IMG/VR virus record: IMGVR_UViG_3300022927_000037
Coordinates: 1 to 46,479 of that record
DNA length: 46,479 bases
Origin: a virus
Reading direction: 5' to 3' (one strand)
Positions 2,097 to 42,039 of this stretch are shown here, in pieces; position 1 is the stretch's first letter, and each line of letters begins with the position of its first letter. The notes below the pieces were generated by a model. It had not been told where the DNA came from, ran no database searches, and was given only the letters and a program-made list of their open reading frames with translations. The translations under genes and the position numbers were made by a program.

Positions 2097-2098
2097 GT

Positions 2099-4074: not shown

Positions 4075-4542
4075 CTAAAGATCAATAATATTGTGAACTT
4101 TTGTATTCAATTGTCTTAGTTCATTGTTCTGGGTTAAGAGAATACAGTTTCTGTAGTGTTGCCAGTCAACTCTAAATTTAGTATCAACTACACCATTATT
4201 AAGAGATTTAATCAATGTATTAAGAGCATTAATTGTATATAAAGTATTGGTATCTTTTTTTCTATGTACGAGGATAGTATTCTCAGGAATACCATTTACA
4301 TTTCCTTGATCAACATTATAAGTAACAACATATTCGCCTGTGCTTTTAATAAAAAGAACAAACATTTTGTTATACATTATATTATATGATCTAGAAATTT
4401 CGTTTACTCGCTCGTCAATGAATTCTTCACTAACGAATGTACAAAATAACTTATTATTCACGTCTATTGTATTTAGGGATCGTTCAAAATCGTATCCCAT
4501 ATACATATGACTAGGTGGTTCTAAAATCGTAATTTCTTCCAT
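4075..4542 (-). CDS. Unrecognised 155-residue protein in the replication block
   Basis: I do not recognise this protein. It begins MEEITILEPPSHMYMGYDFE, has no signal peptide or membrane segment, and has a mixed alpha/beta composition with several short hydrophobic strands (KMFVLFIKSTGEYVVTYNV, residues about 58-76). The start overlaps the end of the Pol A gene by 32 bases, so it is probably translationally coupled to it, and it is followed by gp32. An accessory role in replication, or a displaced polymerase subunit, is possible from position alone. No exonuclease motif (paired DxE and later D) is obvious. The coding status is supported by the uninterrupted frame and the flanking gene packing rather than by homology. 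Confidence 0.75.
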   Translation of the reverse strand: MEEITILEPPSHMYMGYDFERSLNTIDVNNKLFCTFVSEEFIDERVNEISRSYNIMYNKMFVLFIKSTGEYVVTYNVDQGNVNGIPENTILVHRKKDTNTLYTINALNTLIKSLNNGVVDTKFRVDWQHYRNCILLTQNNELRQLNTKVHNIIDL

Positions 4543-19059: not shown

Positions 19060-19308
19060 TCATCGTTTTACGAATTCACCTGTTTCAATATTTATATTTC
19101 CTTCACCATATTTTTCTTGTAACTTTTGACCAGTATCTTCAGATTTTTTGATCAACATTTGTAACATTTCTGTTAATTTATCTTTTTGTAACTCTAAACT
19201 TTGAATTTCTACTTCAATACTACCAAATTTGGTAATAATATCAGCTCTTTCATTATTCAAATCTTCTAATTGTTGTAACTCTTCTTGTGTTAGAAATATT
19301 TTGTCCAT
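19060..19308 (-). CDS. Small coiled-coil protein upstream of the tail sheath
   Basis: This 82-residue protein is almost entirely predicted coiled coil (QEELQQLEDLNNERADIITK and onward to LIKKSEDTGQKLQEKY, residues 7-66), ending in a short Gly/Asn tail. No family is recognised. It sits between the glycosyltransferase cassette (26 bases upstream) and the tail sheath gene. It may be the last cistron of the cassette transcript or a small structural or assembly protein of the tail. There is no signal peptide or membrane segment. Confidence 0.7.
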   Translation of the reverse strand: MDKIFLTQEELQQLEDLNNERADIITKFGSIEVEIQSLELQKDKLTEMLQMLIKKSEDTGQKLQEKYGEGNINIETGEFVKR

Positions 19309-19334: not shown

Positions 19335-20528
19335 TTAAAGAACCCTATTAATAGATTCAATTACTCTTTGTGGTGTTATTGTTTTAGTACATTCAAAATG
19401 TCTATCTGTGTCTTTATGATTAGGACACCATTCCCAATCACCAGGATTTAACCATTCTTTATTAAAACATCCTGTACAAACATTTTCATCGTAATTAAAT
19501 ACGCGTTCACAATCTAAAAATTCACTATAGGGTTGGCTAAATCCTGAAATTAGGATTACTTTAGTACCAATAGCCCAGGATAACCAAGATAAACCACTAC
19601 CTACACCAATAAAAGCATCGGCGTATTTAATATCTACCATTCTGTCCTCAATAGGATAATCACCTGTTTTATCAATTACTCCTTTTAAAGTACCTCCTAA
19701 TTTAGAATCATGCCAATCATCACCTAAACGTTCTTTAGTAATCATTACTACTTTATATCCTTGATCTTTCAAATAGTCAACTATTGCTTGCCAACCACCA
19801 GGATAATTCCAATATTTAGCATGTGCTGAAGCATGAGGGGCGATAATTACATATTTACCTTCAATTTGTTGTCCTTTACTAGGAATTGTAATTTTTGGTT
19901 TAACTTCTCGATATTTTAATCCTAATATTTCTGTTGTTGTTTGGCCTAAAGGGTGTTGTTTAAAGTCAATAGGTATTTTATGTTTTACTACTTCTCTATT
20001 TTCATCATAAAACCAACCAATATTATACATAGCATATAAATTAAATACTTCAGTACCTGGTTCTACAAATTCAATTTCTGGGTATTCTTTTTCGAACCAT
20101 TCATTGTGGAAAGTAGATACTATAAGCTCACATTGATGTTTTACTCTAAAATCATTTACATTAGCAAACCAAGCTAATGTATCTCCAATAGCATCAGATT
20201 CTAAATGAATGTATACTCTTTTTCCTTTAGCATTATAATTTTCAGAGAATTCTAATTGGTCTGTTTTTAAATTATATGCTTCTACTCTCCAATCTTTAAA
20301 ATATTTAATATTAGGAGCAGTCCACATATTATTGCTGATAACTGTTTCATAGATAACATCATTGCTTTTTCTATCTATAAATAAAACTCTATATTTACAA
20401 TCTTTATCCCCATTAATATGTAGTTTAGCTCCTCCAATAAAACTAACAGTAAATGTATTTTGAGGTTCTTTAAAAGGTAAATTTAATTGTTTTAAATTAT
20501 TATAGTTATTTATTAAAACTTCTTTCAT
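19335..20528 (-). CDS. Protein O-heptosyltransferase of the TibC/AAH (BAHT) family
   Basis: This protein would transfer an ADP-heptose-type sugar onto serine hydroxyls of a protein. Residues ~25-100 form a beta-strand N-terminal domain like that of TibC. Residues ~104-335 are the GT-B catalytic part with HLESDAIGDTLAWFANV (108-124), LYAMYNIGWFYDENRE (164-179), HASAHAKYWNYPGGWQ (232-247), GVIDKTGDYPIEDRM (283-297) and GVGSGLSWLSWAIGTKV (308-324). The C-terminus carries four cysteines, C351 and C354 (CTGC), C368 (EWCPNH) and C380 (FEC), in the spacing of the iron-binding finger that defines this family in TibC. The enzyme class is known to hyperglycosylate Ser-rich beta-helical autotransporters. 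No autotransporter is present here; the Ser/Thr-rich collagen-like fibres encoded just upstream are the obvious candidate substrate. It overlaps the preceding gene by 4 bases. Confidence 0.85.
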   Translation of the reverse strand: MKEVLINNYNNLKQLNLPFKEPQNTFTVSFIGGAKLHINGDKDCKYRVLFIDRKSNDVIYETVISNNMWTAPNIKYFKDWRVEAYNLKTDQLEFSENYNAKGKRVYIHLESDAIGDTLAWFANVNDFRVKHQCELIVSTFHNEWFEKEYPEIEFVEPGTEVFNLYAMYNIGWFYDENREVVKHKIPIDFKQHPLGQTTTEILGLKYREVKPKITIPSKGQQIEGKYVIIAPHASAHAKYWNYPGGWQAIVDYLKDQGYKVVMITKERLGDDWHDSKLGGTLKGVIDKTGDYPIEDRMVDIKYADAFIGVGSGLSWLSWAIGTKVILISGFSQPYSEFLDCERVFNYDENVCTGCFNKEWLNPGDWEWCPNHKDTDRHFECTKTITPQRVIESINRVL

Positions 20529-21232
20529 ATATCAAATTGTTTATTAAATTCTTTTTTATATCGTAAATCATCTATAAAAGCCTGGCCATAAGGTAAAATA
20601 TTTCCCCTATCAAAGTTGTGGATTTGTAAGTACCATCTCATATTATAATGATATTGATTATGAGGACGTGCTTTAGCTCTTTCAGTACCTAATATTTCAT
20701 TATTCCAAGGATCTTCATTAGGAAACATAATTGACTTTAAATACTCAACATTCCATATAGCAGCATTATGTGTTAATAACCATACGGAGTCTTGTTTCAT
20801 TTTAAGAACTCTATTATTTTTAATAAATTTATCGGTAGGTTCAAAGTCATAACCCCACCAATGTAGTTTTTCATGAATTCGAAGACAATCGGCATTTTCA
20901 TTATCCATAAATTCTATAAATTCAGGCATAATGTCATTAATTGATCTTTCAGGCCACATATCATCACACATTAATAAAACATACTTTGTATTAATTTTAT
21001 CTAAAGCGTAAATTAATTTATTTGAAAAATCATATTTAGTATAATCGGGTTTGTTGATGTTTAAAGGTATAAAGTTTTTATACTCATAATCATAATTTTT
21101 ACTATCAGAAATAACATATATGTCTAAATCAAGACCACTAAGTAATTCCCAACTTAACCCTAATCCTTCCCAACAATTTGAATAACTATCACACGTAGGA
21201 ACTAAAACTGATATTTTATCTTTTAAATTCAT
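20525..21232 (-). CDS. Glycosyltransferase, GT-A fold (GT2-like)
   Basis: This is a 235-residue nucleotide-sugar transferase of the GT-A type. The N-terminal strand KISVLVPTCDSYSNCW (6-21) is the usual nucleotide-binding start, and YVLLMCDDMWPE (84-95) ends in the acidic DD pair that replaces DxD for metal and donor binding. WWGYDF and NAAIWNVEYLKSIMFP (about 166-181) match the acceptor side, with a Trp-containing motif. No membrane segment is present, so it acts in the cytosol. It overlaps both neighbours (17 bases upstream, 4 bases downstream), as in a tightly coupled operon. The donor sugar cannot be told from sequence; extension of a protein-linked glycan is a plausible role in this context. 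Confidence 0.8.
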   Translation of the reverse strand: MNLKDKISVLVPTCDSYSNCWEGLGLSWELLSGLDLDIYVISDSKNYDYEYKNFIPLNINKPDYTKYDFSNKLIYALDKINTKYVLLMCDDMWPERSINDIMPEFIEFMDNENADCLRIHEKLHWWGYDFEPTDKFIKNNRVLKMKQDSVWLLTHNAAIWNVEYLKSIMFPNEDPWNNEILGTERAKARPHNQYHYNMRWYLQIHNFDRGNILPYGQAFIDDLRYKKEFNKQFDI

Positions 21233-22169
21233 TGTAAATATCCATTAATTCTTTTGTTCTATTATACCATGATAATTCTTTACCAGTATTAATTGCTTTT
21301 TCTTTATATAAATCCCAATTTTTTATAATATCTTTTAATCCTTTATCCATTTCAAAAACATCCCGAGGAGCTCTCCAAGCACCATGAAAATCAGTAGCAT
21401 GTTCCCAATTAGCGATAATAGGCAAACCCGCAGCTGCTGCTTCAATCATTGTTAAATTTGGATGTCCTGCTTCTAACATAGTAGGATGAACAAATATATC
21501 ATGGTCATGGTATAATTCTAGTAATTTAGTATTAGGAGTATCAAAAACCAAATTTAGTTTAGGATAATTTAACATCCATAAATGACCATTAAAGAAATTT
21601 TTATTGTTAGAAGGTCCGGCTATGGTAATTTCTAAATCATTCATCATAGCTAACCCTAAACCATAAGTAAATCCCTTTCTATCATATGTTTTATCTCCTC
21701 CTAACCCATTATTAGCTATCATTAATAACTTAGGTTTTTCTGGTTTGGGATGAAAGGGGTTGTTATAAAACTCATCTGTGTTTACACCATGAGGAAAATA
21801 GACACATTTAGGGTGATCAAAATAATCAACTAGCCATTTAGCCGGCATTAGAGAAATTAAAGATCCTTCAATAGCTTTTAAATTTTCTTTATATACATGA
21901 GAATCTTTACCAAAATGTAACACATGATGATCATGTAATTGATAAATGTAAGGAACCCCTCTTTCTCCTAAACCATTTGCTAAATTAGCTACATGGCAAT
22001 GAACAATATCAAAATCATCAGAATTAATATGAGCCGCCATTTTATGGGTAGATTCATGCCCTAAGGCTCTTTGATTTACTTCAAATTCCCAAATAATTTT
22101 TTCAATTGCCCCCCAATTTTTAGGGGGAATACTTAACCCACATCCGGGGTCTACATGGCATATTTTCAT
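21216..22169 (-). CDS. Glycosyltransferase, GT-B fold (GT4-like)
   Basis: This 317-residue retaining-type transferase has two Rossmann-like halves. The N-terminal half opens MKICHVDPGCGLSIPPKNWGA with the Pro/Gly-rich loop found in GT4 enzymes that bind acceptors (the 'GGxER'-like region), then DIVHCHVA and IYQLHDHHV. The C-terminal half has PKLLMIANNG, LEITIAGPS and FVHPTMLEAGHPNLTMIEAA (227-245) with two glutamates nine residues apart (E233, E243) where the family's E-x7-E motif lies, so the spacing is slightly unusual. No membrane segment is present. It overlaps the FkbM gene by 4 bases and the next transferase by 17. Sugar specificity is unknown. Confidence 0.85.
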   Translation of the reverse strand: MKICHVDPGCGLSIPPKNWGAIEKIIWEFEVNQRALGHESTHKMAAHINSDDFDIVHCHVANLANGLGERGVPYIYQLHDHHVLHFGKDSHVYKENLKAIEGSLISLMPAKWLVDYFDHPKCVYFPHGVNTDEFYNNPFHPKPEKPKLLMIANNGLGGDKTYDRKGFTYGLGLAMMNDLEITIAGPSNNKNFFNGHLWMLNYPKLNLVFDTPNTKLLELYHDHDIFVHPTMLEAGHPNLTMIEAAAAGLPIIANWEHATDFHGAWRAPRDVFEMDKGLKDIIKNWDLYKEKAINTGKELSWYNRTKELMDIYNEFKR

Positions 22170-23056
22170 TTTAAAAAGGCTATATTATTCATTCCATTAT
22201 TGTCATCTACCCAAATGTTATACCCATTAAAATGTAAAAAATCTTCTAGTTTTTGGGTATTAATTTTATTTACTTTTTCATAAATAATTACTTTAGGTTT
22301 TTTTATTTTGTCAAAATCTAAAGCCATTATAAGTTGATCATCCATTCCTTCAACATCAATATGTAACCAATCTAAATCATTAAAATTATTTTCTATTAAT
22401 AATTCATTAATCCCTATTGATTCTTTTGTTACTTCATTTACCTTATTAAAAAATTTTAATACATGATCTTTATCAATAGAATTTGTGTGACCAGTATTGT
22501 CTCCTTCTCCTCCTTCGTAAAATTTAACTTGACCTCCGTTAGGAGTAATTAATTTATTTACTAAAGTAATATTTTTATATTTACTATAATGTTTACTTAA
22601 TCTAGAAAAAGCAGATGTTGATGCTTCTACTAATAACAAATTTGAAAAGTTATTTTGGTGAAATAAATGTACCCATTCACCTGATGTTCCATCGTTAGTA
22701 CCAATAGCTACTCCTTTAGTTTTATCTTTTGTAGCACACCATATATCAAAAGCAATTTCTGATTGAGTTCCATGTTCAATGCTATTCCATTTAGTACGTC
22801 CTATCTCTTTTCCTTTAGAAGTTTTAATAATTAAAGTACATCCATCAAACCAATCAAAACTACACCAATGACCTATACCTATTTGATTTTGGTAAATTTC
22901 TTGGTTATTGTAGGTATCTATAATCTCTATTGTAAAAGGTAAATATTCTTTTGGGAGAAAAAATAAAATATCTTTTTTTATTTCAACATACATTTGGGTC
23001 GATGGATGAGAAATATCTTGGGCTTTTTTAAGTTTTATGTCTAAAAACCGATTCAT
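22166..23056 (-). CDS. FkbM-family methyltransferase with an extra N-terminal beta domain
   Basis: This is a SAM-dependent methyltransferase, typically acting on sugar hydroxyls. The catalytic part spans about 112-296, with SAM motif I GVAIGTNDGTSGEWVHLF (115-132), acidic loop LLVEAS (141-146) and the FkbM hallmark DWLHIDVEGMDDQLIMAL near 233-250. The first ~95 residues are a separate beta-rich piece (TIEIIDTYNNQEIYQNQIGIG, split) that looks related in pattern to the N-terminal domain of the O-heptosyltransferase in this cassette and to residues ~573-645 of the large transferase. That similarity is by eye. A role in capping or methylating a fibre glycan fits the neighbours; no experiment is implied. 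The ATG overlaps the upstream stop by one base. Confidence 0.85.
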   Translation of the reverse strand: MNRFLDIKLKKAQDISHPSTQMYVEIKKDILFFLPKEYLPFTIEIIDTYNNQEIYQNQIGIGHWCSFDWFDGCTLIIKTSKGKEIGRTKWNSIEHGTQSEIAFDIWCATKDKTKGVAIGTNDGTSGEWVHLFHQNNFSNLLLVEASTSAFSRLSKHYSKYKNITLVNKLITPNGGQVKFYEGGEGDNTGHTNSIDKDHVLKFFNKVNEVTKESIGINELLIENNFNDLDWLHIDVEGMDDQLIMALDFDKIKKPKVIIYEKVNKINTQKLEDFLHFNGYNIWVDDNNGMNNIAFLK

Positions 23057-25740
23057 TATATTTTTTTATCTCCTTTAATATTAGTTTCACTTACTTTTTT
23101 ATCTATTAAACTATATCCTTTAGCTTGAAATACTAAAGGTTCTTTATAAAATCCTTTAGGTTCTTGTCTAAAATTATTAGTTACCCATAAATCAAAAGCA
23201 TCCCATTTTGAATTATTAATTTTACTATGTACTTCATGAATTTTACTACCTCTAATTAAATAAGCATGAGCATCAGTAAACATTCCAGCATCAATATGAG
23301 TTTCATATTCGTTAAATGTTTCATAATTGTGGGCAAAACTAAAGAAAGTATAGTCTTTTTCTTGAGAAATTTTAATAGCTTCTTTTAATTTATTAACAAA
23401 TTCATTATGGTCAGTTAATAATAAGGCATCACATTCAAAAAATAAATAAGTAGTATTATTATCTGGAGGGCAAGATAAAATAGCATCAGTATGGGCTTTA
23501 AAACAACCATAATGTCCTGGGGCTAGTTTATAGTATCCAGGTTCTAATTGAACATCATTAGGTCTGTTACAAGTATCTTTAGGGGGTAAATCCGTGTAAG
23601 GAGTATTAATAACTTGTGTGTATTCAATTCCATCATATTCACCTAATTTACTAATAGATTCAATAGAGCGTTGTTCTCTTTCTTCTTCAGGTTGAGTTAA
23701 TAAATGTACAATTTTTATTTTTTGATCAGACTCATAATTTGTTCTATCCCCTTTCCACTTAAAACTACCATTATTAGGCATTTTATTTAAGAAATAATCT
23801 TTATTTAAATTAAATACGTGTTCCTTAATAAAATCACCTGTGTTTAAATCGGTAATATGGAATTTTACTATTGTGTTATCATCCAATGAATAAGGAACCA
23901 TATCCCAGAAATAGTATTTACCTGTAACTTCTAAATTTCTATCAATAATTATTTCACCATTTCTTTCTACAGTATATTGAATTAATTTACTTTCTTTAGC
24001 ATTTGAAATTGTAATCCATGGACAGAATCTGCCTGGGACATCTGTAGGAAGGATTGTATAGTATTCAACCATTGAATAATCTTCAAAATCAAAATACTTT
24101 TCGGCATCGGATTCAAATTTTTCTCTAGGCTCAATATGGTTATTTGGGTAATCTTTAAACAAATGATAATACATATTTTCAATACCATTTGATTCAGATC
24201 CACAAGTTACCATTAAATTATCGTAAGCTTGAGCTGATTGAATATCAGGGGTTTGTCTTAATATTGCATTTGGGGTTGCACTAAAGAAATATGTGTAGTA
24301 ACATTTACCTTCTTGTGCTTCAAATTCACCAAAGAATGTATCGTTTGTATTTAAAATTTCTGAAATATAATTAATATAATCTTCGTCTTTTAAAATATAA
24401 TCATAATTAACAAAGTGAAGTTTATTAATACCTAAATTTTTGGCAAATGTTGCTGGGTTTCTAAAACTAGTATAACAAGCGGGTCCGTGATATCTATCAT
24501 TTCCCTCACCCTTTAAATTTAAATAAGTATCATATAAATCTGTATAAAAATTAAAACTAGAATAGAATGTATGTTTAGTTAAAATATTATTTGAATCATA
24601 AAACACATAATCTACCATTTCTTGTAATTCTTTAGGTACAGGAGCATGTGCTGAGATTATTAATTTTCTTCCATCACGTTTTAATGAATTAATACAATCT
24701 TTAGTAGTTTGTACAATAGCATCGGTTACAGGATATGTACATATTACATATGCTTCTTCGGATGGAGTAATAATAGTATTACCTTCTAAGTGTTGTTGGA
24801 TTAATTTTTTATTCTTATCAAGATCATTAAAATCAAGATAATTTACACTAGGATAAGAATCAAAATAATTTTGATATACTTCTAAATTATATAACAATTG
24901 AGGAATTTGATAGGATAATGCTTCACGAATTACTAAGGGCATAGTTTCTTTATCATGATTGCTTCCTCTAGATGTAAATAAAAATAAATCCATTGATTGA
25001 TAAAAATTATCTACATCTGTACGTTCATTCCACCATGTAACATTATCAGGTTTATTTTCCATTAATGGACGCCAATAATGTTCAAAGTTACTTGCTTGAT
25101 TACCTACACAATGAAATTCATATTCAGGAAGCATTTTAGCATATTCAAAAAATTCAGCTTGATTTTTTCTAGGTGTAAATAAACCAATATGTAAAATGTG
25201 TTTTTTATTAGGATCTAATCCTAACTTTTGTAATGCTTTTGTTCGATCAGGACGTTCAATATATTCAATAGGATATTCAACTAATACTTTAGGGATATCA
25301 ATATCTTTATATTGATCAATTTGCCATTGAGATACAAACATAAACATATCTGGGAAGAATTGTTTATTGTCTGTATTAAAAGATGAATCGTGTGATGTTT
25401 CTACAATTTTGTAAGAGCGATCTGTATGGTATACTTGTTCCATTATTTCTCTAGGGAATCCTGCCAACTCGGGGATTTCTTCTAGATGTATAATGTCGGG
25501 TTGAATTTGATCAATTAATGATAAAATTTCAGTTTTGTCTTCTCCTAAAGTGTAAAATTTTTCTTCAGGTAAAAGTGCTTTAATTTTATTTTTAGTAACA
25601 ACTAAAACACCTCCTGTAACGTCAGTCCATTCAACTAAATGAATTTCGTATTCGTTTTTAAGTAATTCTATTTTTTTTGTTAAATATTGAGGTAGACCTC
25701 CAGTAGATAAATGTGGAGCTACACAAAGTAATTTTTTCAT
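23056..25740 (-). CDS. Multidomain glycosyltransferase (GT4 + central GT-like domain + GT25-like C-terminus)
   Basis: At 894 residues this is about twice the size of a usual transferase. Domain 1 (1-325) is a GT-B GT4 enzyme: KLLCVAPHLSTGGLPQYL start, HILHIGLFTPRKNQ (181-194) and ETMPLVIREAL with E-x7-E (E265, E273). Domain 2 (about 330-530) begins YVICTYPVTD and has HFVNYDYILKDEDYI (442-456), suggestive of a GT-A donor site; its family is not recognised. Residues ~573-645 are a beta domain similar in pattern to those in the FkbM and heptosyltransferase proteins. Domain 3 (about 675-850) resembles family GT25: GHYGCFKAHTDAIL (742-755) matches the G-x-x-G-C-x-x-x-H signature and LFFECDALLL (766-775) stands where GT25 has an E-D-D metal motif. 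GT25 includes LPS and collagen galactosyltransferases. It is the first gene of the cassette, with a late-type element 39 bases upstream. Confidence 0.8.
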   Translation of the reverse strand: MKKLLCVAPHLSTGGLPQYLTKKIELLKNEYEIHLVEWTDVTGGVLVVTKNKIKALLPEEKFYTLGEDKTEILSLIDQIQPDIIHLEEIPELAGFPREIMEQVYHTDRSYKIVETSHDSSFNTDNKQFFPDMFMFVSQWQIDQYKDIDIPKVLVEYPIEYIERPDRTKALQKLGLDPNKKHILHIGLFTPRKNQAEFFEYAKMLPEYEFHCVGNQASNFEHYWRPLMENKPDNVTWWNERTDVDNFYQSMDLFLFTSRGSNHDKETMPLVIREALSYQIPQLLYNLEVYQNYFDSYPSVNYLDFNDLDKNKKLIQQHLEGNTIITPSEEAYVICTYPVTDAIVQTTKDCINSLKRDGRKLIISAHAPVPKELQEMVDYVFYDSNNILTKHTFYSSFNFYTDLYDTYLNLKGEGNDRYHGPACYTSFRNPATFAKNLGINKLHFVNYDYILKDEDYINYISEILNTNDTFFGEFEAQEGKCYYTYFFSATPNAILRQTPDIQSAQAYDNLMVTCGSESNGIENMYYHLFKDYPNNHIEPREKFESDAEKYFDFEDYSMVEYYTILPTDVPGRFCPWITISNAKESKLIQYTVERNGEIIIDRNLEVTGKYYFWDMVPYSLDDNTIVKFHITDLNTGDFIKEHVFNLNKDYFLNKMPNNGSFKWKGDRTNYESDQKIKIVHLLTQPEEEREQRSIESISKLGEYDGIEYTQVINTPYTDLPPKDTCNRPNDVQLEPGYYKLAPGHYGCFKAHTDAILSCPPDNNTTYLFFECDALLLTDHNEFVNKLKEAIKISQEKDYTFFSFAHNYETFNEYETHIDAGMFTDAHAYLIRGSKIHEVHSKINNSKWDAFDLWVTNNFRQEPKGFYKEPLVFQAKGYSLIDKKVSETNIKGDKKI

Positions 25741-25779
25741 AAACTAATTTTAAAATTGTAACTAAATATAATAACCTAT

Positions 25780-25790
25780 TAATAAATATC
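25780..25790 (-). promoter_or_regulatory. Putative late promoter element before the glycan cassette
   Basis: The coding strand reads GATATTTATTA, a one-base variant of the shared element, 39 bases before the ATG at 25740. It would drive the five overlapping genes down to 19335. Confidence 0.45.
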
Positions 25791-25795
25791 CAAAT

Positions 25796-25948
25796 TTACT
25801 TATTCTGTTTTAAACGTTCGTTTATTTTTTTAACTTCTTCGGGATCAGTAACTGCTTGAGCAGCTACTAGATCCTCGAGAGAAATTTTTATTATCGGAAT
25901 ACCACTTTCCTCCATTTGTTTTTTAATTTCAGGAGTTATTTTTTTCAT
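25796..25948 (-). CDS. Small 50-residue protein after the giant fibre gene
   Basis: I do not recognise it. I chose the ATG at 25946-25948 (MKKITPEIKKQMEESG) because an upstream ATG in the same frame would overlap the fibre gene by 35 bases; the chosen start lies just after the fibre stop. The product is helical and charged (ITPEIKKQMEESG, then DPEEVKKINERLKQNK). It is probably co-transcribed with the fibre, and a small helper or assembly role is possible, as is a fortuitous frame. Confidence 0.5.
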   Translation of the reverse strand: MKKITPEIKKQMEESGIPIIKISLEDLVAAQAVTDPEEVKKINERLKQNK

Positions 25949-25949
25949 A

Positions 25950-34900: not shown

Positions 34901-37900
34901 CTGAAGTACTAGATACTCCTGAAGTACCAGCAACTCCATCAGCTCCTTGAGAACCATTTGAACCTGTTGTACCACTTGTAGCGCTTTCACCTGAAGTTCC
35001 AGCTACTCCTGAAGTACCTATTGTACCTGAGGAACCAGCTGAACCACTTGTTTCGCTTAATCCTGATTGTCCTGCGTTACCGCTTGAACCTGTGGAACCT
35101 GTTGAACCTGAGGTTCCAGAAGTAGCACTTTCGCCTGAAGTACCTGCTATTCCATCTTCACCTGCACTACCATTTGAACCAGTAGTACCTGATGTGTTAG
35201 AAATTCCACTTGTACCAGCAACTCCATCGGCTCCTTGTGAACCTGAAGTACCTGAGGTACCAGAAGTAGCGCTTATACCACTTGTACCAGCAACACCATC
35301 TTCACCTGAAGAACCTGTGCTACCTGATGTACCACTTGTGTTTGATTCACCTGAAGTACCAGCTACACCGCTTGTGCCGATTGTACCTGAACTACCAGCA
35401 GAACCGCTTGTAGACGATAAACCACTTTGTCCATCATTTCCTGAAGAACCTGTTGAACCTGTACTACCTGATGAACCGCTTGTAGCACTTTCACCTGATG
35501 TACCTGCTATTCCATCGGCTCCTTGAGAACCGTTTGAACCTGTTGTACCACTTGTTGAGGAAATTCCACTTGTACCAGCAACACCATCAGCTCCTTGAGA
35601 ACCGGATGTACCACTTGTACCTGAAGTAGCACTTATACCACTTGTACCAGCAATTCCATCGGCTCCTTGTGAACCTGATGTGCCGCTTGTACCGCTTGTT
35701 TCACTATTTCCAGAAGTTCCAGCTACACCACTTGTACCTATAGTACCTGATGAACCAGCTGAACCTGAAGTTTCGCTTAATCCTGATTGTCCAGCGTTAC
35801 CGCTTGAACCCGTTGAACCGGTTGAGCCTGAGCTACCGCTTGTAGCACTTATACCACTTGTACCAGCAATTCCATCGGCTCCTTGTGAACCTGATGTACC
35901 TGTTGTACCTGATGTTGAACTTATACCTGAGGTACCTGCTATTCCATCAGCTCCTTGTGAACCTGATGTGCCGCTTGTGCCGCTTGTTGAAGAAACTCCG
36001 CTTGTACCTGCTACTCCATCAGCTCCTGAAGAGCCTGATGTACCAGTTGTACCTGAAGTTTCGCTATTTCCTGATGTTCCAGCTACTCCTGAAGTACCTA
36101 TTGTACCACTCGAACCAGCTGAACCACTTGTTTCGCTCAATCCACTTTGTCCTGCATTTCCTGAAGAACCTGTTGAACCTGTTGAACCACTACTTCCTGC
36201 AGTAGCACTTTCACCTGAAGTACCTGCTATACCTGAAGTACCAGAAGTACCATCTTCACCTGATGAACCTGATGTTCCGCTTTCACCTGAAGTACCTGAT
36301 GTTCCTGATTCACCTGAGGTGCCAGCAACTCCTGTTGTACCAGAGGTACCATCTTCGCCTGATGAACCTGATGTTCCGGATTCGCCACTTGTACCAGCAA
36401 CTCCACTAGTACCTATTGTACCTGATGAACCAGCTGAACCACTTGTTTCGCTTAATCCGCTTTGTCCCGCATTACCTGAGGAACCTGTACTACCTGTTGA
36501 GCCTGAACTACCGCTTGTAGCACTTATACCACTTGTACCAGCAACTCCATCAGCTCCTTGAGAGCCTGCTGAACCTGTTGTACCTGAAGTGGCACTTATA
36601 CCTGAGGTACCTGCAACTCCATCAGCTCCTTGAGAACCGTTTGAACCTGTTGTACCACTTGTTGAAGAAACTCCACTAGTACCGGCAATACCATCAGCTC
36701 CTGAGGAACCAGATGTACCTGTTGTACCTGAAGTTTCACTATTTCCTGATGTTCCTGCAACTCCACTAGTACCAATTGTACCGCTTGAACCTGCTGAACC
36801 TGAAGTTTCGCTTAATCCTGATTGTCCTGCGTTACCGCTTGAACCTGTGGAACCTGTTGAACCACTACTTCCTGCAGTAGCACTTTCACCTGAAGTACCT
36901 GCAGCTCCAGTTGTTCCTGAAGTACCATCTTCGCCTGAAGATCCACTTGTACCTGATTCGCCACTTGTGCCTGAAATACCTGATGTTCCTGATTCACCTG
37001 AAGTTCCTGAAGCTCCTGTTGTACCTGATGTGCCATCTTCACCTGATGAACCAGATGTACCTGATTCGCCACTTGTTCCAGCTACTCCTGAAGTACCAAT
37101 TGTACCCGAGCTACCTGCTGAACCTGAAGTTTCGCTTAATCCTGATTGTCCTGCGTTACCTGAGGAACCTGTTGAACCGGTTGAACCTGAACTACCTGAA
37201 GTAGCGCTTATACCACTAGTACCAGCAACTCCATCATTTCCTTGTGAACCAGAAGAACCTGAAGTACCTGATGAACCACTAAATCCACTAATACCATCAT
37301 CTCCAACACTACCATTTGAACCAGTAGTACCTGAAGTAGCACTTATACCTGAGGTACCTGCTACTCCATCAGCTCCTTGAGAACCTGATGTACCGCTTGT
37401 ACCGCTTGTTTCACTATTTCCTGAAGTACCAGCTACACCGCTTGTGCCGATTGTACCTGAACTACCAGCAGAACCTGAGGTTTCACTTAATCCGCTTTGT
37501 CCTGCGTTACCTGAGGAACCAGTTGAACCGGTTGAACCTGAACTACCGCTTGTAGCACTTTCACCACTTGTTCCTGCTATTCCATCTTCGCCTGAAGATC
37601 CACTTGTACCTGATTCACCTGAAGTACCTGCTACTCCAGTTGTACCTGAAGTACCATCAGCTCCTGATGAACCATTTGTTCCAGATTCACCTGAGGTACC
37701 AGCAACTCCAGTTGTTCCTGAAGTACCATCTTCACCAGAAGAACCTGATGTGCCTGATTCACCTGAAGTTCCAGCTACTCCTGAAGTACCAATAGTACCA
37801 CTTGAGCCAGCTGAACCTGATGTTTCACTTAATCCGCTTTGTCCTGCATTTCCTGAAGAACCTGTTGAACCTGTACTACCTGATGAACCGCTTGTAGCGC

Positions 37901-40157
37901 TTTCACCTGAGGTACCTGCAGCTCCAGTTGTTCCTGAGGTACCATCTTCGCCTGAAGATCCACTTGTACCTGATTCACCTGAAGTACCTGAAATACCAGA
38001 TGTACCTGATTCGCCACTTGTGCCTGCTATACCTGAGGTACCTGAAGTACCATCCTCACCTGAAGATCCTGATGTGCCGGATTCGCCTGAAGTGCCAGCT
38101 ACACCGCTTGTACCAATTGTACCACTCGAACCAGCTGAACCACTTGTTTCGCTTAATCCTGATTGTCCTGCATTACCGCTTGAACCCGTTGAACCTGTAC
38201 TACCTGAGGAACCACTTGTAGCACTTTCACCACTTGTTCCTGCTATACCTGAAGTACCTGATGTACCATCTTCACCTGATGAACCAGATGTACCTGATTC
38301 GCCTGAGGTACCAGCAACTCCAGTTGTACCTGAAGTACCATCAGCTCCTGAAGAACCTGATGTACCTGATTCACCTGAGGTACCAGCGGTTCCATCTTCA
38401 CCTGATGAACCAGACGTACCTGACTCACCTGAAGTACCTGCTACACCTGAAGTACCTATCGTACCGGAACTACCTGCTGAACCACTTGTTTCACTTAATC
38501 CTGATTGTCCAGCGTTACCTGAAGAACCAGTTGAACCTGTACTACCAGATGTTCCTGAAGTAACACTTTCACCACTTGTTCCTGCTACTCCAGTTGTTCC
38601 TGAAGTACCATCTTCACCTGATGAACCTGATGTTCCTGATTCGCCTGATGAACCTGATGTTCCTGATTCACCAGAAGAACCTACTGCTCCTGAAGTACCT
38701 GAAGTACCATCAGCACCAGAAGAACCACTTGTTCCTGATTCGCCTGAGGTACCAGCAACTCCAGTTGTTCCTGAGGTACCATCAGCTCCTGAAGAGCCTG
38801 ATGTACCATCAGCTCCTGAAGAGCCTGATGTACCTGATTCGCCTGAGGTACCAGCTACTCCAGTTGTTCCTGAAGTGCCATCCTCACCTGATGAACCACT
38901 TGTACCTGATTCGCCACTTGTTCCAACAGCTCCTGAAGTACCTGATGTGCCATCTTCACCTGAAGATCCACTTGTACCTGACTCACCTGAAGTACCTGCT
39001 ACTCCAGTTGTACCTGATGTACCATCGGCACCAGAAGAACCTGAGGTACCATTTTCACCTGAAGTACCTGATTGTCCTGTTGTACCTGAACTACCTGCTA
39101 AACCTGATGTTCCTGAACTAGCGTTTACATATCCAAATTCTCCTGTAGTTGTATCATAAGTTACAACTGTAATAATATCTTGTTCAGGTAAATCGCTAAT
39201 AGAGAAATCACTTCCTGTAATATGAAGTGAACCTGTTATTTGAGCTGAACCTGTATATGGAAATCCATCTCCTGAACCTCCACCACCACTACCGGATGTT
39301 ATAGTTACTAGTACTCCGTCTGAACCGGAGGTAACTACTTCTACACCGGAACCGGTGAAATTAATATTTGCGTTGTTTTTAGAAACTAAAGAACCACTAT
39401 AATATATATCGGTTTGAACTAAATCATCTAAAAAGTCTCCTATTTCAATTTGATAAGCTGCTGTTTCTTGACCAACATTTAAGTTTTGAATACCTGTAAG
39501 GTTTCTAGTAAATATTGGAGCTAATGATTCTGAGGGAGTTAATGATACAATTGCTGTGTTTTGACCAGATGATTCTAATAATTCATCTCCAGTGTCGGCT
39601 TGAGTACCTTTTTCTCCCCATTTTACATAAATAGAACCTTCAGCACCTGATGGGTTTCTATAAAATACTTCTGAGATTGTATATTTATGGAATCTACCAT
39701 TAATAATATTTTGTCCACTATCAGCAGCTTGACCTAAAATAGCATAAATTGGAGTAGATTCATCAAAATTAGAATCATCACTACCAGTAATATCATTAAA
39801 ATTAATTAATCCTTGAGGATCTGTTAATGAAGCTGAAGGGATAAAATAATCACCTTCCGCTGGGGATATACGGGCTAATGAATTAGTTCCATTAGCTGAT
39901 GGGAAATCTTCTACTGTAATTGTATTGGCTCCTGTATCAACAGCTGTAACGATAGTTGCTGTTGGCATTACTGTGGATGCAATTAATGATTGGCCTACTC
40001 TTATTTCGTCTAATCCAAAGTATCCTGAAACGTTAGCAACGTTTGTAATAGTTTTAGAAGAAGTACTAAAATCACCTGTAATTCTAATATATGAATTACT
40101 TCCATTACCTATAGGGGTGACTGATGAGAGTTTCCCGTAGAAAAGTTGTCTTGCCAT
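25950..40157 (-). CDS. Giant collagen-like tail fibre protein (4735 residues)
   Basis: This is the largest gene of the window and likely a virion fibre. Residues ~1-346 are a non-repetitive beta-rich N-terminal domain (MARQLFYGKLSSVTPIGNGS...), presumably the virion attachment end. It closes with the motif INFTGSGVEVV...GVLVTITSGSG, shared with the neighbouring short fibre. Residues ~347-4549 are almost unbroken Gly-X-Y triplets, mostly GTS, GSS, GST, GAD, GES and GNN, with very few prolines. The C-terminal ~186 residues (from GGAFVNSPNYLVRTD) contain TRLGINDTSPSYRLDVNGN and IYHSGDTNTFIGF, a pattern of phage fibre tips. No S74 self-cleaving chaperone is seen. Single-residue substitutions of the triplet glycine occur regularly. 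It has its own late-type element 37 bases upstream, after a terminator. Fibre function is inference from composition and position. Confidence 0.85.
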   Translation of the reverse strand: MARQLFYGKLSSVTPIGNGSNSYIRITGDFSTSSKTITNVANVSGYFGLDEIRVGQSLIASTVMPTATIVTAVDTGANTITVEDFPSANGTNSLARISPAEGDYFIPSASLTDPQGLINFNDITGSDDSNFDESTPIYAILGQAADSGQNIINGRFHKYTISEVFYRNPSGAEGSIYVKWGEKGTQADTGDELLESSGQNTAIVSLTPSESLAPIFTRNLTGIQNLNVGQETAAYQIEIGDFLDDLVQTDIYYSGSLVSKNNANINFTGSGVEVVTSGSDGVLVTITSGSGGGGSGDGFPYTGSAQITGSLHITGSDFSISDLPEQDIITVVTYDTTTGEFGYVNASSGTSGLAGSSGTTGQSGTSGENGTSGSSGADGTSGTTGVAGTSGESGTSGSSGEDGTSGTSGAVGTSGESGTSGSSGEDGTSGTTGVAGTSGESGTSGSSGADGTSGSSGADGTSGTTGVAGTSGESGTSGSSGADGTSGTSGAVGSSGESGTSGSSGESGTSGSSGEDGTSGTTGVAGTSGESVTSGTSGSTGSTGSSGNAGQSGLSETSGSAGSSGTIGTSGVAGTSGESGTSGSSGEDGTAGTSGESGTSGSSGADGTSGTTGVAGTSGESGTSGSSGEDGTSGTSGIAGTSGESATSGSSGSTGSTGSSGNAGQSGLSETSGSAGSSGTIGTSGVAGTSGESGTSGSSGEDGTSGTSGIAGTSGESGTSGISGTSGESGTSGSSGEDGTSGTTGAAGTSGESATSGSSGSTGSTGSSGNAGQSGLSETSGSAGSSGTIGTSGVAGTSGESGTSGSSGEDGTSGTTGVAGTSGESGTNGSSGADGTSGTTGVAGTSGESGTSGSSGEDGIAGTSGESATSGSSGSTGSTGSSGNAGQSGLSETSGSAGSSGTIGTSGVAGTSGNSETSGTSGTSGSQGADGVAGTSGISATSGTTGSNGSVGDDGISGFSGSSGTSGSSGSQGNDGVAGTSGISATSGSSGSTGSTGSSGNAGQSGLSETSGSAGSSGTIGTSGVAGTSGESGTSGSSGEDGTSGTTGASGTSGESGTSGISGTSGESGTSGSSGEDGTSGTTGAAGTSGESATAGSSGSTGSTGSSGNAGQSGLSETSGSAGSSGTIGTSGVAGTSGNSETSGTTGTSGSSGADGIAGTSGVSSTSGTTGSNGSQGADGVAGTSGISATSGTTGSAGSQGADGVAGTSGISATSGSSGSTGSTGSSGNAGQSGLSETSGSAGSSGTIGTSGVAGTSGESGTSGSSGEDGTSGTTGVAGTSGESGTSGTSGESGTSGSSGEDGTSGTSGIAGTSGESATAGSSGSTGSTGSSGNAGQSGLSETSGSAGSSGTIGTSGVAGTSGNSETSGTTGTSGSSGADGVAGTSGVSSTSGTSGTSGSQGADGIAGTSGISSTSGTTGTSGSQGADGIAGTSGISATSGSSGSTGSTGSSGNAGQSGLSETSGSAGSSGTIGTSGVAGTSGNSETSGTSGTSGSQGADGIAGTSGISATSGTSGTSGSQGADGVAGTSGISSTSGTTGSNGSQGADGIAGTSGESATSGSSGSTGSTGSSGNDGQSGLSSTSGSAGSSGTIGTSGVAGTSGESNTSGTSGSTGSSGEDGVAGTSGISATSGTSGTSGSQGADGVAGTSGISNTSGTTGSNGSAGEDGIAGTSGESATSGTSGSTGSTGSSGNAGQSGLSETSGSAGSSGTIGTSGVAGTSGESATSGTTGSNGSQGADGVAGTSGVSSTSGTTGSNGSAGADGVAGTSGESATSGTSGSTGTVGSSGNAGTSGDSATSGTSGSTGSTGSSGNNGQSGLSRTSGSAGSSGTIGTSGNAGTSGNSETSGTSGSSGSQGADGVAGTSGESATSGTTGSNGSAGADGVAGTSGVSNTSGTTGSNGSQGADGVAGTSGESKTSGTSGSTGSTGSSGNNGQSGLSRTSGTAGSSGTIGTSGNAGTSGESATSGTTGSNGSQGTNGIAGTSGISSTSGTTGSNGSQGADGVAGTSGVSATSGTSGSAGSVGTTGDAGTSGESATSGSSGSTGSTGSSGNAGQSGLSETSGSAGSSGTIGTSGVAGTSGESNTSGTSGSAGSQGADGVAGTSGISSTSGTTGSNGSQGTNGIAGTSGISSTSGTTGSNGSQGADGVAGTSGESATSGTSGSTGSTGSSGNNGESGLSRTSGSAGSSGTIGTSGVAGTSGESATSGTTGSNGSQGTNGIAGTSGVSNTSGTTGSNGSAGADGVAGTSGESSTSGTSGSTGSVGSSGDDGTSGESATSGSSGSTGSTGSSGNAGQSGLSRTSGSAGSSGTIGTSGIAGTSGESSTSGTTGSNGSQGTNGIAGTSGVSSTSGTTGSNGSQGTNGIAGTSGISSTSGTTGSSGSQGTDGVAGTSGESATSGSSGSTGSTGSSGNNGESGLSRTSGSAGSSGTIGTSGVAGTSGNSETSGTSGSAGSQGADGVAGTSGISSTSGTTGSNGSQGTNGIAGTSGVSSTSGTTGTSGSQGADGVAGTSGESATSGTSGSTGSTGSSGNDGQSGLSRTSGSAGSSGTIGTAGVAGTSGISSTSGTTGSNGSQGTNGIAGTSGISSTSGTTGSNGSQGTDGVAGTSGESATSGTSGSAGSVGTTGDAGTSGESATSGSSGSTGSTGSSGNAGQSGLSRTSGSAGSSGTIGTSGVAGTSGESATSGTSGSTGTVGSSGEAGTSGASNTSGTSGSTGTVGSSGDAGTSGESTTSGSSGSTGSTGSSGNNGESGLSRTSGSAGSSGTIGTSGVAGTSGESTTSGTTGSNGSQGTNGIAGTSAVSGTSGSTGSSGSAGVDGANRTSAVSGTSGSTGSSGSNGNNGGSGLSRSSGSSGSTGSTGSSGNNGQSGLSRTSGSAGSSGTIGTSGIAGTSGESSTSGTTGSNGSQGTNGIAGTSGISNTSGTTGSNGSQGTNGIAGTSGISSTSGTTGSSGSQGTDGVAGTSGESNTSGTSGSTGSTGSSGNDGQSGLSRTSGSAGSSGTIGTAGVAGTSGISTTSGTTGSSGSQGTNGIAGTSAVSGTSGSTGSSGSAGINGANRTSAVSGTSGSSGSAGSNGNNGGSGLSRTSGSSGSTGSTGSSGNNGESGLSRTSGSAGSSGTIGTAGVAGTSGESSTSGTTGSNGSQGTNGIAGTSGVSNTSGTTGSNGSQGTNGIAGTSGISSTSGTTGSSGSNGANGASGISRTSGTSGSTGSTGSSGNNGQSGLSRTSGSAGSSGTIGTAGVAGTSGLSSTSGTTGSNGSQGTNGIAGTSAVSGTSGSTGSSGSAGANGANRTSAVSGTSGSSGSAGSNGNNGGSGLSRSSGSSGSSGSTGSSGNNGQSGLSRTSGSAGSSGTIGTSGNNGTSGLSRTSGTSGSTGSTGSSGNNGGSGLSRLSGTSGSSGSTGSAGINGGSGLSRSSGSSGSTGSTGSSGNDGQSGLSRTSGSAGSSGTIGTAGVAGTSGVSTTSGTTGSSGSNGVNGANRTSAVSGTSGSTGSAGSAGVNGANKTSAVSGTSGSTGSSGSNGANGGSGLSRTSGSAGSSGSTGSSGNNGQSGLSRTSGSAGSSGTIGTSGNNGTSGLSRLSGTSGSTGSSGSSGVNGANRTSAVSGTSGSTGSSGSSGANGGSGLSRTSGSAGSSGSTGSNGNNGGSGLSRLSGTSGSSGSSGSAGANGANRTSAVSGTSGSTGSAGSNGANGASGLSRTSGSSGSTGSSGNNGQSGLSRTSGSAGSSGTIGTSGNNGTSGLSRTSGTSGSTGSAGVNGANRTSAVSGTSGSTGSSGSSGNNGANGASALSRTSGSSGSSGSTGSNGNNGGSGLSRLSGTSGSSGSAGSSGANGANRTSAVSGTSGSSGSAGSNGANGGSGLSRTSGTSGSTGSTGSTGNNGQSGLSRTSGSAGSSGTLGTSGNNGTSGLSRLSGTSGSTGSSGTSGANGANRTSAVSGTSGSTGSSGSTGNNGANGASALSRTSGSSGSSGSTGSSGNNGGSGLSRLSGTSGSSGSSGSNGANGANRTSAVSGTSGSSGSNGVNGGNGLSRVSGTSGSTGSTGSSGNNGQSGLSRTSGSAGSSGTLGTSGNNGTSGLSRLSGTSGSTGSSGTSGNNGANGLSRTSGVSGTSGSTGSNGVAGANGANRTSAVSGTSGSSGSSGTSGINGASGASGLSRTSGSTGTSGSNGANGANRTSGVSGTSGSTGSNGNNGGNGLSRVSGTSGSTGSSGTSGNNGANRTSAVSGTSGSSGSNGVNGANGANRTSGVSGTSGSSGSSGNNGANGASGLSRTSGSSGTSGSSGNNGQSGLSRTSGSAGSSGTLGTSGNNGTSGLSRVSGTSGSTGSSGSSGNNGANGASRTSGVSGTSGSTGSNGVAGANGANRTSAVSGTSGSSGSSGNNGVNGGNGLSAVSGTSGSSGSNGIAGVNGANRTSAVSGTSGSSGSNGVNGGNGLSRVSGTSGSSGSNGVNGVNGANRTSGVSGTSGSSGSSGNNGQSGLSRTSGTNGSSGNIGTSGVAGTSGSSGGSGTSGQNGAGGTSGANGTSGSSGTPGTSGTSINGTSGISGGAFVNSPNYLVRTDSSTTVQSVPFLYTDITNTRLGINDTSPSYRLDVNGNAQITTDLYLGNRIYHSGDTNTFIGFNTLDEFQIYCGGVLMLQFVEGINDYFYSQRTLGLGPTVPDTNQSLHIQPASGTGALRVDNAGGGVALNPVGPPDTQIGSAGPPNEFLGPPDVWLIINVSGTDYQFPGYL
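26509..39120 (-). repeat. Collagen-like Gly-X-Y coding repeat, about 1400 triplets in ~30 longer modules
   Basis: This 12.6-kb block encodes GXY triplets. Superimposed is a longer module marked by GSTGSTGSSGNAGQSGLS followed by E/R/S-TS, then GSAGSSGTIGTSG; I counted roughly thirty copies by eye, about 130 residues apart on average. Copies keep the amino-acid order but vary at third codon positions. The opposite strand is open over long stretches purely because of this codon pattern. Confidence 0.93.
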
Positions 40158-40194
40158 TTATACTAGTATCTTTAAATCAATTTGAATATTCATA

Positions 40195-40205
40195 TAATAA
40201 ATATG
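40195..40205 (-). promoter_or_regulatory. Putative late promoter element before the giant fibre gene
   Basis: The coding strand reads CATATTTATTA, 37 bases before the ATG at 40157 and 2 bases after the terminator U-tract at 40208-40214. Confidence 0.5.
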
Positions 40206-40207
40206 AT

Positions 40208-40233
40208 AAAAAAAGCCCCAATAATGGGGCTTT
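40208..40233 (-). terminator. Intrinsic terminator between the two collagen-like fibre genes
   Basis: An 8-bp stem (AAAGCCCC at 40212-40219 with GGGGCTTT at 40226-40233) has a 6-base loop and is followed on the coding strand by seven T. It is 21 bases past the stop of the short fibre gene. Confidence 0.88.
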
Positions 40234-40254
40234 AAAAATTATTTTTTATTTTTT

Positions 40255-42039
40255 TTAAAATTGTAAAGTATACAATACATCTCCAAATACATCTAAACCT
40301 CCACTTAATGAATATACATTATGGTTAGTAGTTGTACTAAAAGATAATGTAGCACTACCTACTTTACTTGAGGTAGCTCCACTAACATCATAAAAATCAA
40401 ATGAAGCAGGGACTCTAGAATTTAATGAATTATTTTTACCAGCACCATTTGTAATCGAATTAGAAGGAACCGTAACAGTAATACTACTATCCTCCATTTG
40501 ATCTAAAAATACTACCATTGATATTAATTGAGCATTACCTGCTGAAGGAGAAACAATTGTTAAAGCTGTATTAGTTAAACTAGAAACATCAAATGCAGGA
40601 ATGTAAGCACCTTCTGTACCACTAGTACCACCTGAGTTTGCTACTGTTAAAGTAAAAGAATTCACATTAGGTACAGTTTGGATTTCTAAATATGAGTAAT
40701 CTTCACTCATGTTTCTAATTACTACAAAATCACCAGCTGATAATCCATGTGCTGTATGAGTAACTGTTAGTGTAGTTGATGAACGAGACCATGTTAATCC
40801 TCCTTCTACATTACCTGAGGATAATAGTTGTGCTCTTTTATTTCCACTAGATACTTCATATCTAACTACTGGGTTGTATGATGCACCACCACCTGCTCCA
40901 TCAGCACCTGAAGATCCTGATGTACCGGGGGCACCAGCAGCTCCTGTCGCTCCTGAAGAGCCTGAAGAACCTGATGTCCCTGCAGCACCTGCAGCACCGG
41001 TTTCACCACTTGAGCCTGAGGTACCATTAGCACCTGATGAACCTGAAGTACCTGGGTTACCTGTAGCTCCGTCTTCTCCGCTTGAACCTGAAGTACCATT
41101 AGCACCTGATGAACCTGAAGTACCTGGGTTACCTGTAGCTCCGTCTTCACCTGAAGAACCTGAAGTACCTGGGTTACCTTGAATACCTTGTTCACCTGAA
41201 GAACCTGAAGTGCCATCGGCACCTGAAGATCCTGATGTACCTGGATTACCTGTAGCTCCATCAGCACCAGATGAACCTGATGTACCATCGGCACCTGAAG
41301 AACCTGATGTACCATCGGCACCTGAAGAACCTGATGTACCTGATTCGCCTGAAGAGCCTGATGTACCTGATTCGCCTGAAGAGCCTGATGTACCTGATTC
41401 GCCTGAAGAGCCTGATGTACCATCGGCGCCTGAAGAACCACTTGTACCTGGGGCACCAGCAGCTCCTGTTGCTCCTGAAGAACCTGATGTACCATCAGCA
41501 CCAGAAGAACCTGAAGTACCATTAGCTCCTGAAGAACCTGAAGTACCTGACTCACCTGAAGAACCACTTGTACCTGGGGCACCAGCAGCTCCTGTAGCTC
41601 CTGAAGAACCACTTGTTCCATCAGCACCTGAGGATCCTGAAGTACCATCGGCGCCTGAAGAACCACTTGTTCCTGTAGCACCATCAGCTCCAGAAGAACC
41701 TGAAGTACCATTAGCTCCTGAAGAACCTGAAGAACCAGAACCTGAAGCAGATCCTGTTACAAAAGTAAATGTGGCTACACCACCTGAGATTCCTATAGAT
41801 TCTACTGCTGAACCACTAAAGTTAAGTGTACTAGCACTTCCTACAGATGAACCATCATTCTGAATTGGGATTAAAGATGAACCACCTCCGGAACCGGAAG
41901 CTGCTGGGTATACATTACCATCTGAATCTTTAATATATAGTCTACCTCCGTCGCCTTCTTCGGTAAAAAAAGCAACCGATCCTGATGCTGGGACGGTTAC
42001 GCTTCCTGAGGGTGTAAGTTTTGAATTTATTTGAGCCAC
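40255..42039 (-). CDS. Short collagen-like fibre protein (594 residues)
   Basis: A second fibre protein lies directly upstream of the giant one. Residues 1-99 are an N-terminal head with VAFFTEEGDGGRLYIKDSDG (about 22-41) and the motif LNFSGSAVESIGISGGVATF just before the repeats. Residues ~100-385 are Gly-X-Y triplets (GTS, GSS, GAD, GAN, with occasional GAP and GNP and one GEQGIQGNPG run). Residues ~386-594 are a globular beta-rich tip (TWSRSSTTLTVTHTAHGLSA, VVFLDQMEDSSITVTVPSN). It starts with GTG, as the frame has no suitable ATG, and AGAAGAA precedes it. A late-type element is 18 bases upstream. Collagen-like stalks are common in phage fibres; this one is of ordinary size. Confidence 0.87.
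   Translation of the reverse strand: MAQINSKLTPSGSVTVPASGSVAFFTEEGDGGRLYIKDSDGNVYPAASGSGGGSSLIPIQNDGSSVGSASTLNFSGSAVESIGISGGVATFTFVTGSASGSGSSGSSGANGTSGSSGADGATGTSGSSGADGTSGSSGADGTSGSSGATGAAGAPGTSGSSGESGTSGSSGANGTSGSSGADGTSGSSGATGAAGAPGTSGSSGADGTSGSSGESGTSGSSGESGTSGSSGESGTSGSSGADGTSGSSGADGTSGSSGADGATGNPGTSGSSGADGTSGSSGEQGIQGNPGTSGSSGEDGATGNPGTSGSSGANGTSGSSGEDGATGNPGTSGSSGANGTSGSSGETGAAGAAGTSGSSGSSGATGAAGAPGTSGSSGADGAGGGASYNPVVRYEVSSGNKRAQLLSSGNVEGGLTWSRSSTTLTVTHTAHGLSAGDFVVIRNMSEDYSYLEIQTVPNVNSFTLTVANSGGTSGTEGAYIPAFDVSSLTNTALTIVSPSAGNAQLISMVVFLDQMEDSSITVTVPSNSITNGAGKNNSLNSRVPASFDFYDVSGATSSKVGSATLSFSTTTNHNVYSLSGGLDVFGDVLYTLQF
40885..41742 (-). repeat. Collagen-like Gly-X-Y repeat of the short fibre
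   Basis: About 95 consecutive GXY triplets, dominated by GTSGSSG, with a few Pro in GAPG and GNPG. The repeat vocabulary (GTS, GSS, GAD, GES) is shared with the N-terminal part of the giant fibre, so the two arrays probably have a common origin. Confidence 0.9.

Follow-up and report, generated by a model that had tools for sequence, protein, structure and literature searches.

The enzymes of the TibC/AAH family (BAHT, TIGR04414) are protein O-heptosyltransferases associated with TibA and AIDA-I. They are characterized by dodecameric assembly and by the transfer of heptose from ADP-heptose to Ser. TibC modifies Ser, not Thr; the known TibC acceptors are β-helical autotransporters, and the gene of the substrate autotransporter often adjoins that of the enzyme in the known loci of the family (PMC4358343). 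Here, we analyzed a locus of comparable arrangement in a T4-like myophage, the complete IMG/VR record IMGVR_UViG_3300022927_000037 (46,479 bases; hereafter, the window). In the window, two collagen-like fiber genes are followed by five enzyme genes overlapping by 1–17 bases, one of which encodes a TibC/AAH homolog, and then by the tail sheath gene, all of them on the − strand. The locus probably represents a module consisting of a fiber and its finishing enzymes, in which the enzyme cassette O-glycosylates the neighboring fiber. As in the TibC/AAH loci, a candidate substrate that is Ser-rich, repetitive, and exposed at the surface is encoded next to the enzyme. Unlike them, the window enzyme is encoded by a phage, its partner is a collagen-like fiber and not an autotransporter, and further transferases and a methyltransferase are located alongside.

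Other described systems share part of this design. Virion proteins of mycobacteriophages are decorated by phage-encoded transferases, but the hosts, transferases, and acceptors are different, and we know of no collagen-like fiber module in that system. The glycans of BclA, for which no TibC-type enzyme is known to us, are reported to contain methylated sugars, and the acceptor in the Mimivirus collagen is hydroxylysine. BclA of Bacillus spores is a glycan-bearing collagen-like surface protein (PMC8968730) and resembles the proposed window fiber in this respect, but it is cellular and is served by different enzymes. The Mimivirus collagen is modified by a viral lysyl hydroxylase/glycosyltransferase according to Luther et al. 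(2011), as cited in PMC8968730, and here again a virus encodes a collagen-like protein together with hydroxylating and glycosylating enzymes. Mimivirus is, however, an amoebal giant virus, whereas Lys is nearly absent from the window fiber and the acceptor is probably Ser; no lysyl hydroxylase family was reported among the window proteins scanned. The preliminary description of this DNA knew of no phage system of this design, and none was found in the open-access literature (most subscription papers were outside the search).

Collagen-like fibers and cassette enzymes of the window

The shorter fiber (594 residues; 40255..42039, − strand, GTG start) contains 95 consecutive perfect Gly-X-Y (GXY) triplets at residues 102–386 and scores 135.2 bits against Pfam Collagen (cut-off, 27.2). 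Ser and Thr occupy 60% of its X and Y positions. The longer fiber (4,735 residues; 25950..40157, − strand) keeps one GXY register across 4,194 residues (349–4542), a region with 1,228 Ser, 642 Thr, and practically no Pro. Gly is the first residue in 88% of the 1,398 in-register triplets, Ser is present at half of the Y positions, and Lys accounts for 0.2%. Both Ser/Thr-rich tracts announced in the preliminary description were confirmed, but the long one is not uninterrupted. Its longest perfect run is 61 triplets, and in 170 of the 1,398 triplets, Arg, Ala, Ser, Glu, or Asn stands in place of Gly, usually as xTS, with Thr-Ser after the replacing residue. The spacing between replacements is exactly 24 residues in 120 of 169 cases, producing a 24-residue super-repeat in which approximately every eighth triplet is altered. 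A dominant 24-residue spacing is also found in several relatives with Ser/Thr-rich fibers (e.g. L163 and L198; relatives are cited by locus number) but not in all of them. This period may correspond to a kink, a charge band, or an enzyme recognition site. The length of the tracts alone excludes a chance origin, and since the longest exact DNA repeat in the 4,735-residue gene is 77 bp, assembly collapse is no obvious worry.

The fibers are predicted to form triple helices. At a rise of 0.286 nm per residue, the 1,398 triplets of the long fiber would extend to ~1.2 μm if the helix is fully extended, many times the length of a phage tail. A different Gly-rich fold, such as a polyglycine-II bundle or a β structure, on which sugars would serve adhesion or solubility, is suggested by the periodic loss of Gly and the near absence of Pro in the long fiber, by the β-helical nature of the known TibC acceptors, and by a relative (L030) in which the cassette is paired with a non-GXY repeat fiber. 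We consider such a fold rather unlikely, in view of the unbroken triplets and the Collagen score of the shorter fiber, the single register maintained through the longer one, and the prolyl-hydroxylase-like gene that accompanies Pro-type GXY fibers in relatives, as collagen predicts. It competes with the structural part of our proposal only and is compatible with glycosylation of the fiber.

The 397-residue enzyme (19335..20528, − strand) is a TibC/AAH homolog by both the cut-off of the family and its residues. It scores 314.7 bits against the TIGR04414 equivalog model (curated cut-off, 200), which is also matched by all 30 aligned relatives of the enzyme, and 32 bits, above the cut-off, against Pfam Glyco_transf_9. 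The TibC structures (4rap and 4rb4) align with residues 22–395 (E = 5e-54). The roles of the TibC residues have been described (PMC4358343). The catalytic base Asp110 corresponds to Asp116 of the window enzyme, the sugar-binding Lys230, Arg286, and Trp305 correspond to Lys238, Arg296, and Trp315, and the four iron-finger cysteines are matched by Cys351, Cys354, Cys368, and Cys380; all of these are invariant among the 30 relatives. The fourth sugar-binding residue, Thr226, is conservatively replaced by Ser (Ser234) in the window enzyme and all relatives, and Pro300 of TibC, which is involved in donor stereoselectivity, is replaced by Gly in the window enzyme. A TibC-like N-terminal β domain shared by the FkbM, GT9, and 894-residue enzymes was considered as well, but it is unproven, as the profile comparison gave a probability of at most 13% (controls up to ~4%).

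The multidomain glycosyltransferase (GT; 894 residues; 23056..25740, − strand) consists of a GT4 domain (residues ~1–325; 44.7 bits, above the Pfam cut-off), an α/β domain (329–548), a β-sandwich (555–662), and a C-terminal domain (674–884) that, judging from modeling and relatives, appears GT25-like. A sequence search against solved structures gave no meaningful match for this enzyme. Among the aligned C-terminal domains, 14 of 16 match Pfam GT25 (PF01755; best E = 1.9e-5), and that of L036 reaches 24.3 bits against a cut-off of 24. Human COLGALT1, a GT25 enzyme, was among the best matches of the structure model of the whole protein (9evk, E = 2.9e-10; 9evj, 7e-10), but only parts can superpose, as indicated by the whole-chain template modeling (TM) scores of 0.18/0.30 and a root-mean-square deviation of 23; GT25 moreover includes enzymes of lipopolysaccharide (LPS) synthesis. 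The C-terminal domains appear to have been exchanged between relatives, because two divergent versions of the domain (window 23056–23733 and the homologous parts of L085 and L163) are attached to N-terminal parts that hardly differ. The ECDALL version is that of the window, and close relatives that are ~90% identical N-terminally carry a version only ~41% identical to it. Such an exchange could alter sugar specificity.

The remaining enzymes are an FkbM-family methyltransferase with an N-terminal β domain (22166..23056, − strand; PF05050, 36.2 bits; cut-off, 22.7), a GT-B enzyme (21216..22169, − strand; Glycos_transf_1, 28.1 bits, above the cut-off), and a probable GT-A-type transferase of 235 residues (20525..21232, − strand). 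The fold matches listed for the FkbM model include FkbM 2py6 and otherwise consist of methyltransferases and unrelated folds. Of the families assigned in the preliminary description, FkbM, GT-B, and TibC/AAH hold above their cut-offs, but the GT-A assignment is weak (TIGR04440, 23.1 bits; cut-off, 70). The five overlapping genes between the fibers and the sheath are as described there, but across relatives, the cassette is reduced to a core of three (multidomain GT, GT-B, and TibC-type enzyme), whose order is retained in most of them, plus variable accessories. The FkbM and GT-A genes of the window occur in few relatives; others carry different FkbM methyltransferases, a carbamoyltransferase, an epimerase, or GT2 enzymes. 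The carbamoyltransferase lies inside or beside the cassette in several lineages (L118:421–2058, Carbam_trans_C, 185 bits; L129; L149; L184–L190). Three features had been overlooked: the 24-residue period of the long fiber, the domain resembling GT25 and COLGALT1, and the counterpart module with a prolyl-hydroxylase-like gene described below.

Association of the cassette with fibers in relatives

Relatives were gathered via the tail sheath, the TibC-type enzyme, the 894-residue enzyme, the prolyl-hydroxylase-like gene, the fiber C-terminal domain, genomes, and annotated phages. The sheath protein (17293..19008, − strand; PHROG tail sheath, E = 6e-76) served as a cassette-independent marker. Loci sharing 1.2 kb at 95% identity were collapsed into clusters, and a fiber was counted if it was located within 6.5 kb. 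The scan with the fiber C-terminal domain yielded five loci, two of them from a pair of contigs already in the sample, and was unusable as independent ascertainment. A survey of this kind had been suggested in the preliminary description, and the co-occurrence it anticipated was found: a GXY fiber accompanies the cassette in 55 of the 58 informative clusters, and 30 of the 31 sheath-ascertained clusters lacking the cassette also lack a GXY fiber. The three cassette clusters without a counted fiber are L030 (a Ser-rich non-GXY fiber), L135 (short GXY segments), and L209 (the contig starts too close to the cassette). The non-GXY fibers of L029 and L030 matched no known family, including the strand-loop-strand acceptor model.

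The association is preserved through rearrangement. In a second lineage, the cassette comes after the major capsid gene, with a Ser/Thr-rich fiber facing it on the opposite strand. A 735-kb phage encodes a fusion of GT-B with the TibC-type enzyme, and its fiber is divergent beside the homolog of the 894-residue enzyme. The cultured Microcystis phage Mel-JY01 (PP395634.1; L081 and L326, at both record ends) has a TibC-type enzyme fused to a GT with a fiber close by. Its 1,226-residue protein annotated as "methyltransferase FkbM" comprises GT4, a methyltransferase-like region, and the TibC-type enzyme, and joining the record ends reveals a 1,788-codon open frame with a collagen-like tract across the record start, of which the annotation is partial. 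This cultured phage makes the module testable now. The gene order of the window recurs in contigs of metagenome-assembled genomes (MAGs) from Winogradskyella and from another flavobacterium, and the nearest isolate by sheath is Flavobacterium phage immuto, which together suggest a flavobacterial host for the window phage. A lone TibC-type enzyme without a fiber is encoded in a 636-kb "uncultured phage" record (L084; LR756504.1, 20001–21062); its neighbors look cellular by eye (fructose-1,6-bisphosphatase-like and sigma-factor-like), and the record is possibly a mis-assigned bacterial contig.

The cassette adjoins the sheath gene in the window and the major capsid gene in the second lineage, and mycobacteriophage enzymes are known to glycosylate virions, so that another virion protein, such as that of the sheath or of the major capsid, might be the acceptor in place of the fiber. 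We regard this as very improbable: the fiber is the common neighbor across contexts whereas sheath and capsid are not, the cassette is missing from about thirty clusters of sheath relatives, and the type of accessory enzyme tracks the composition of the fiber (see below). It is likewise very improbable that the cassette modifies host LPS or capsule for superinfection block or serotype change, with the fiber as a mere neighbor. GT-B, GT4, and GT2 enzymes and FkbM methyltransferases are indeed common in LPS and O-antigen clusters, and there is a weak Pfam/NCBIfam similarity to LPS heptosyltransferases, but the key enzyme with its iron finger scores as a protein O-heptosyltransferase far above those models, and the cassette lies in a late structural operon. 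It was not seen in fiber-less sheath relatives whose upstream region was fully readable. Among the neighboring open reading frames examined, no flippase, polymerase, acyltransferase, LPS-export gene, or nucleobase-modification gene was recognized beside the cassette. The proposal of the preliminary description that the cassette decorates the fiber gains support, at the level of genome comparison, from the linkage to GXY fibers across relatives and through rearrangement and from the cut-off and residue tests of the TibC-type enzyme.

Fiber composition and modifying enzymes

In some relatives, a prolyl-hydroxylase-type 2-oxoglutarate-Fe(II) oxygenase gene (PF13640, 51.5 bits), often with a DUF6445 gene, lies between the fiber and the cassette. 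These relatives have GXY fibers of the GPQ/GPT/GYQ type, poor in Ser/Thr. A scan with this prolyl-hydroxylase-like enzyme found many phages with Pro-type fibers and no cassette, and at least 43% identical homologs with 2 kb of upstream sequence visible have a GXY fiber upstream in 31 of 38 loci. The gene is located downstream of Pro-containing, Ser/Thr-poor GXY fibers in L131 (656–1249), L165, L170, L192, L198, L208, and L211–L234.

The prolyl-hydroxylase-like gene was found in none of the 50 clusters with Ser/Thr-rich, Pro-free fibers versus 17 of the 18 with Ser/Thr-poor, Pro-containing ones. A Ser/Thr-rich fiber with the cassette and no hydroxylase is present in 49 clusters, plus one mixed cluster; a Ser/Thr-poor Pro fiber with the hydroxylase and no cassette is present in 11, plus the similar L233 and the intermediate L222. 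Five clusters carry both enzyme sets, and one truncated cassette locus (L196) has a Pro fiber and no hydroxylase. In L198, a Ser/Thr-rich and a Pro-type fiber occur together with the two enzyme sets. Fisher tests of fiber type against hydroxylase gave p = 4e-15 overall and 1.6e-6 within the cassette-bearing clusters, both inflated by shared ancestry. When independent switches were counted on an 80-row tree of the sheath, the hydroxylase agreed with a Pro fiber in four of four pairs, and the cassette agreed with a Ser/Thr fiber in approximately three of three pairs in which it differed; three further pairs showed no difference, and none was opposite. The nearest kin of the window on this tree (L164, L198, L165, and L192) differ in fiber type and hydroxylase together. 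To our knowledge, this covariation has not been described, and nothing similar was found in the open-access literature.

These patterns might reflect exchangeable modules of fiber chemistry, in which a Ser/Thr-rich, proline-free fiber comes with a TibC-type/GT25-like cassette, a Pro fiber with a prolyl-hydroxylase-like enzyme, and both fibers with both sets. The glycan would then replace hydroxyproline in stabilizing micrometer-long collagens, a generalization that we offer tentatively. The GIS/GLS-type fiber of L014 represents a third fiber chemistry. Least probable of all is hitchhiking, in which a hypervariable receptor-binding locus accumulates glycan genes with no functional coupling: the accessories and the domains of the 894-residue enzyme are shuffled among relatives and the tree contains few independent switches, but the core order is kept in most relatives, the enzyme class fits the fiber chemistry in all informative switches, and the TibC-type enzyme occurs fused to other cassette enzymes.

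Proposed glycosylation pathway and genomic context

We propose the following pathway. The late operon would produce a giant Ser/Thr-rich, collagen-like, tail-associated fiber together with the enzymes encoded on the same strand, and O-glycosylation of the fiber would take place in the cytoplasm of the host. The first sugar is most likely attached by the TibC-type enzyme to Ser of GXS/GSX triplets. Ser is the likelier acceptor because TibC modifies Ser and leaves Thr unmodified and because Ser fills half of the Y positions. GT-B may then extend the glycan together with the three-domain transferase (GT4 plus GT25-like), and the accessories may decorate it, namely the FkbM methyltransferase and GT-A in the window and the carbamoyltransferase, epimerase, and other transferases in relatives. 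The resulting coat would keep a proline-free helix, to which the customary Pro/Hyp stabilization is not available, hydrated, stiff, and protected, and would present a variable surface. If this is true, protein O-heptosyltransferase-type enzymes extend to phage virions, sugars may stabilize a proline-less collagen helix in a natural system, and close relatives use either hydroxylation or glycosylation as their post-translational solution, in keeping with the fiber sequence.

Several observations weigh against glycosylation of the fiber as outlined here. The C-terminal domain of the window's own 894-residue enzyme reached no Pfam family. In L030, the one clear exception, the cassette follows a Ser-rich non-GXY repeat fiber, and in L014 (3–3518), a collagen-like fiber of the GIS/GLS type adjoins the sheath with no cassette. 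The cassette is kept with Ser/Thr-poor Pro-type fibers in five clusters, one of which also has a Ser/Thr-rich fiber. The raw counts of the covariation are inflated by ancestry, and the independent switches, all agreeing, are few (four and approximately three; p = 0.125–0.25). Finally, the heptose-7-phosphate kinase domain was above the curated cut-off in none of 100 genomes of the family of the Winogradskyella MAG, and the sugar may therefore not be heptose.

The second HldE domain was above its cut-off in none of 60 genomes of the same family; the models of both HldE domains also respond to generic relatives. Four cassette-bearing phage records encode a short kinase, and the best match of the two scanned was the heptose-7-phosphate kinase model (118–126 bits; cut-off, 345). 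Heptose is thus a possible donor sugar of the cassette. Compact proteins resembling this kinase are located at L342 (4143–4895) and L345 (5128–5919) with other sugar-nucleotide genes (rmlC-like, epimerases, and PseF-like).

The cassette and the sheath gene are separated by a gene for a conserved 82-residue protein (19060..19308, − strand), which is also found in cassette-less relatives. Besides the sheath, PhoH, gp32, a DnaB-like helicase, a 5′–3′ exonuclease, and, weakly, a tube-like gp19 are recognizable in the window, which comes from the structural part of a T4-like myophage genome.

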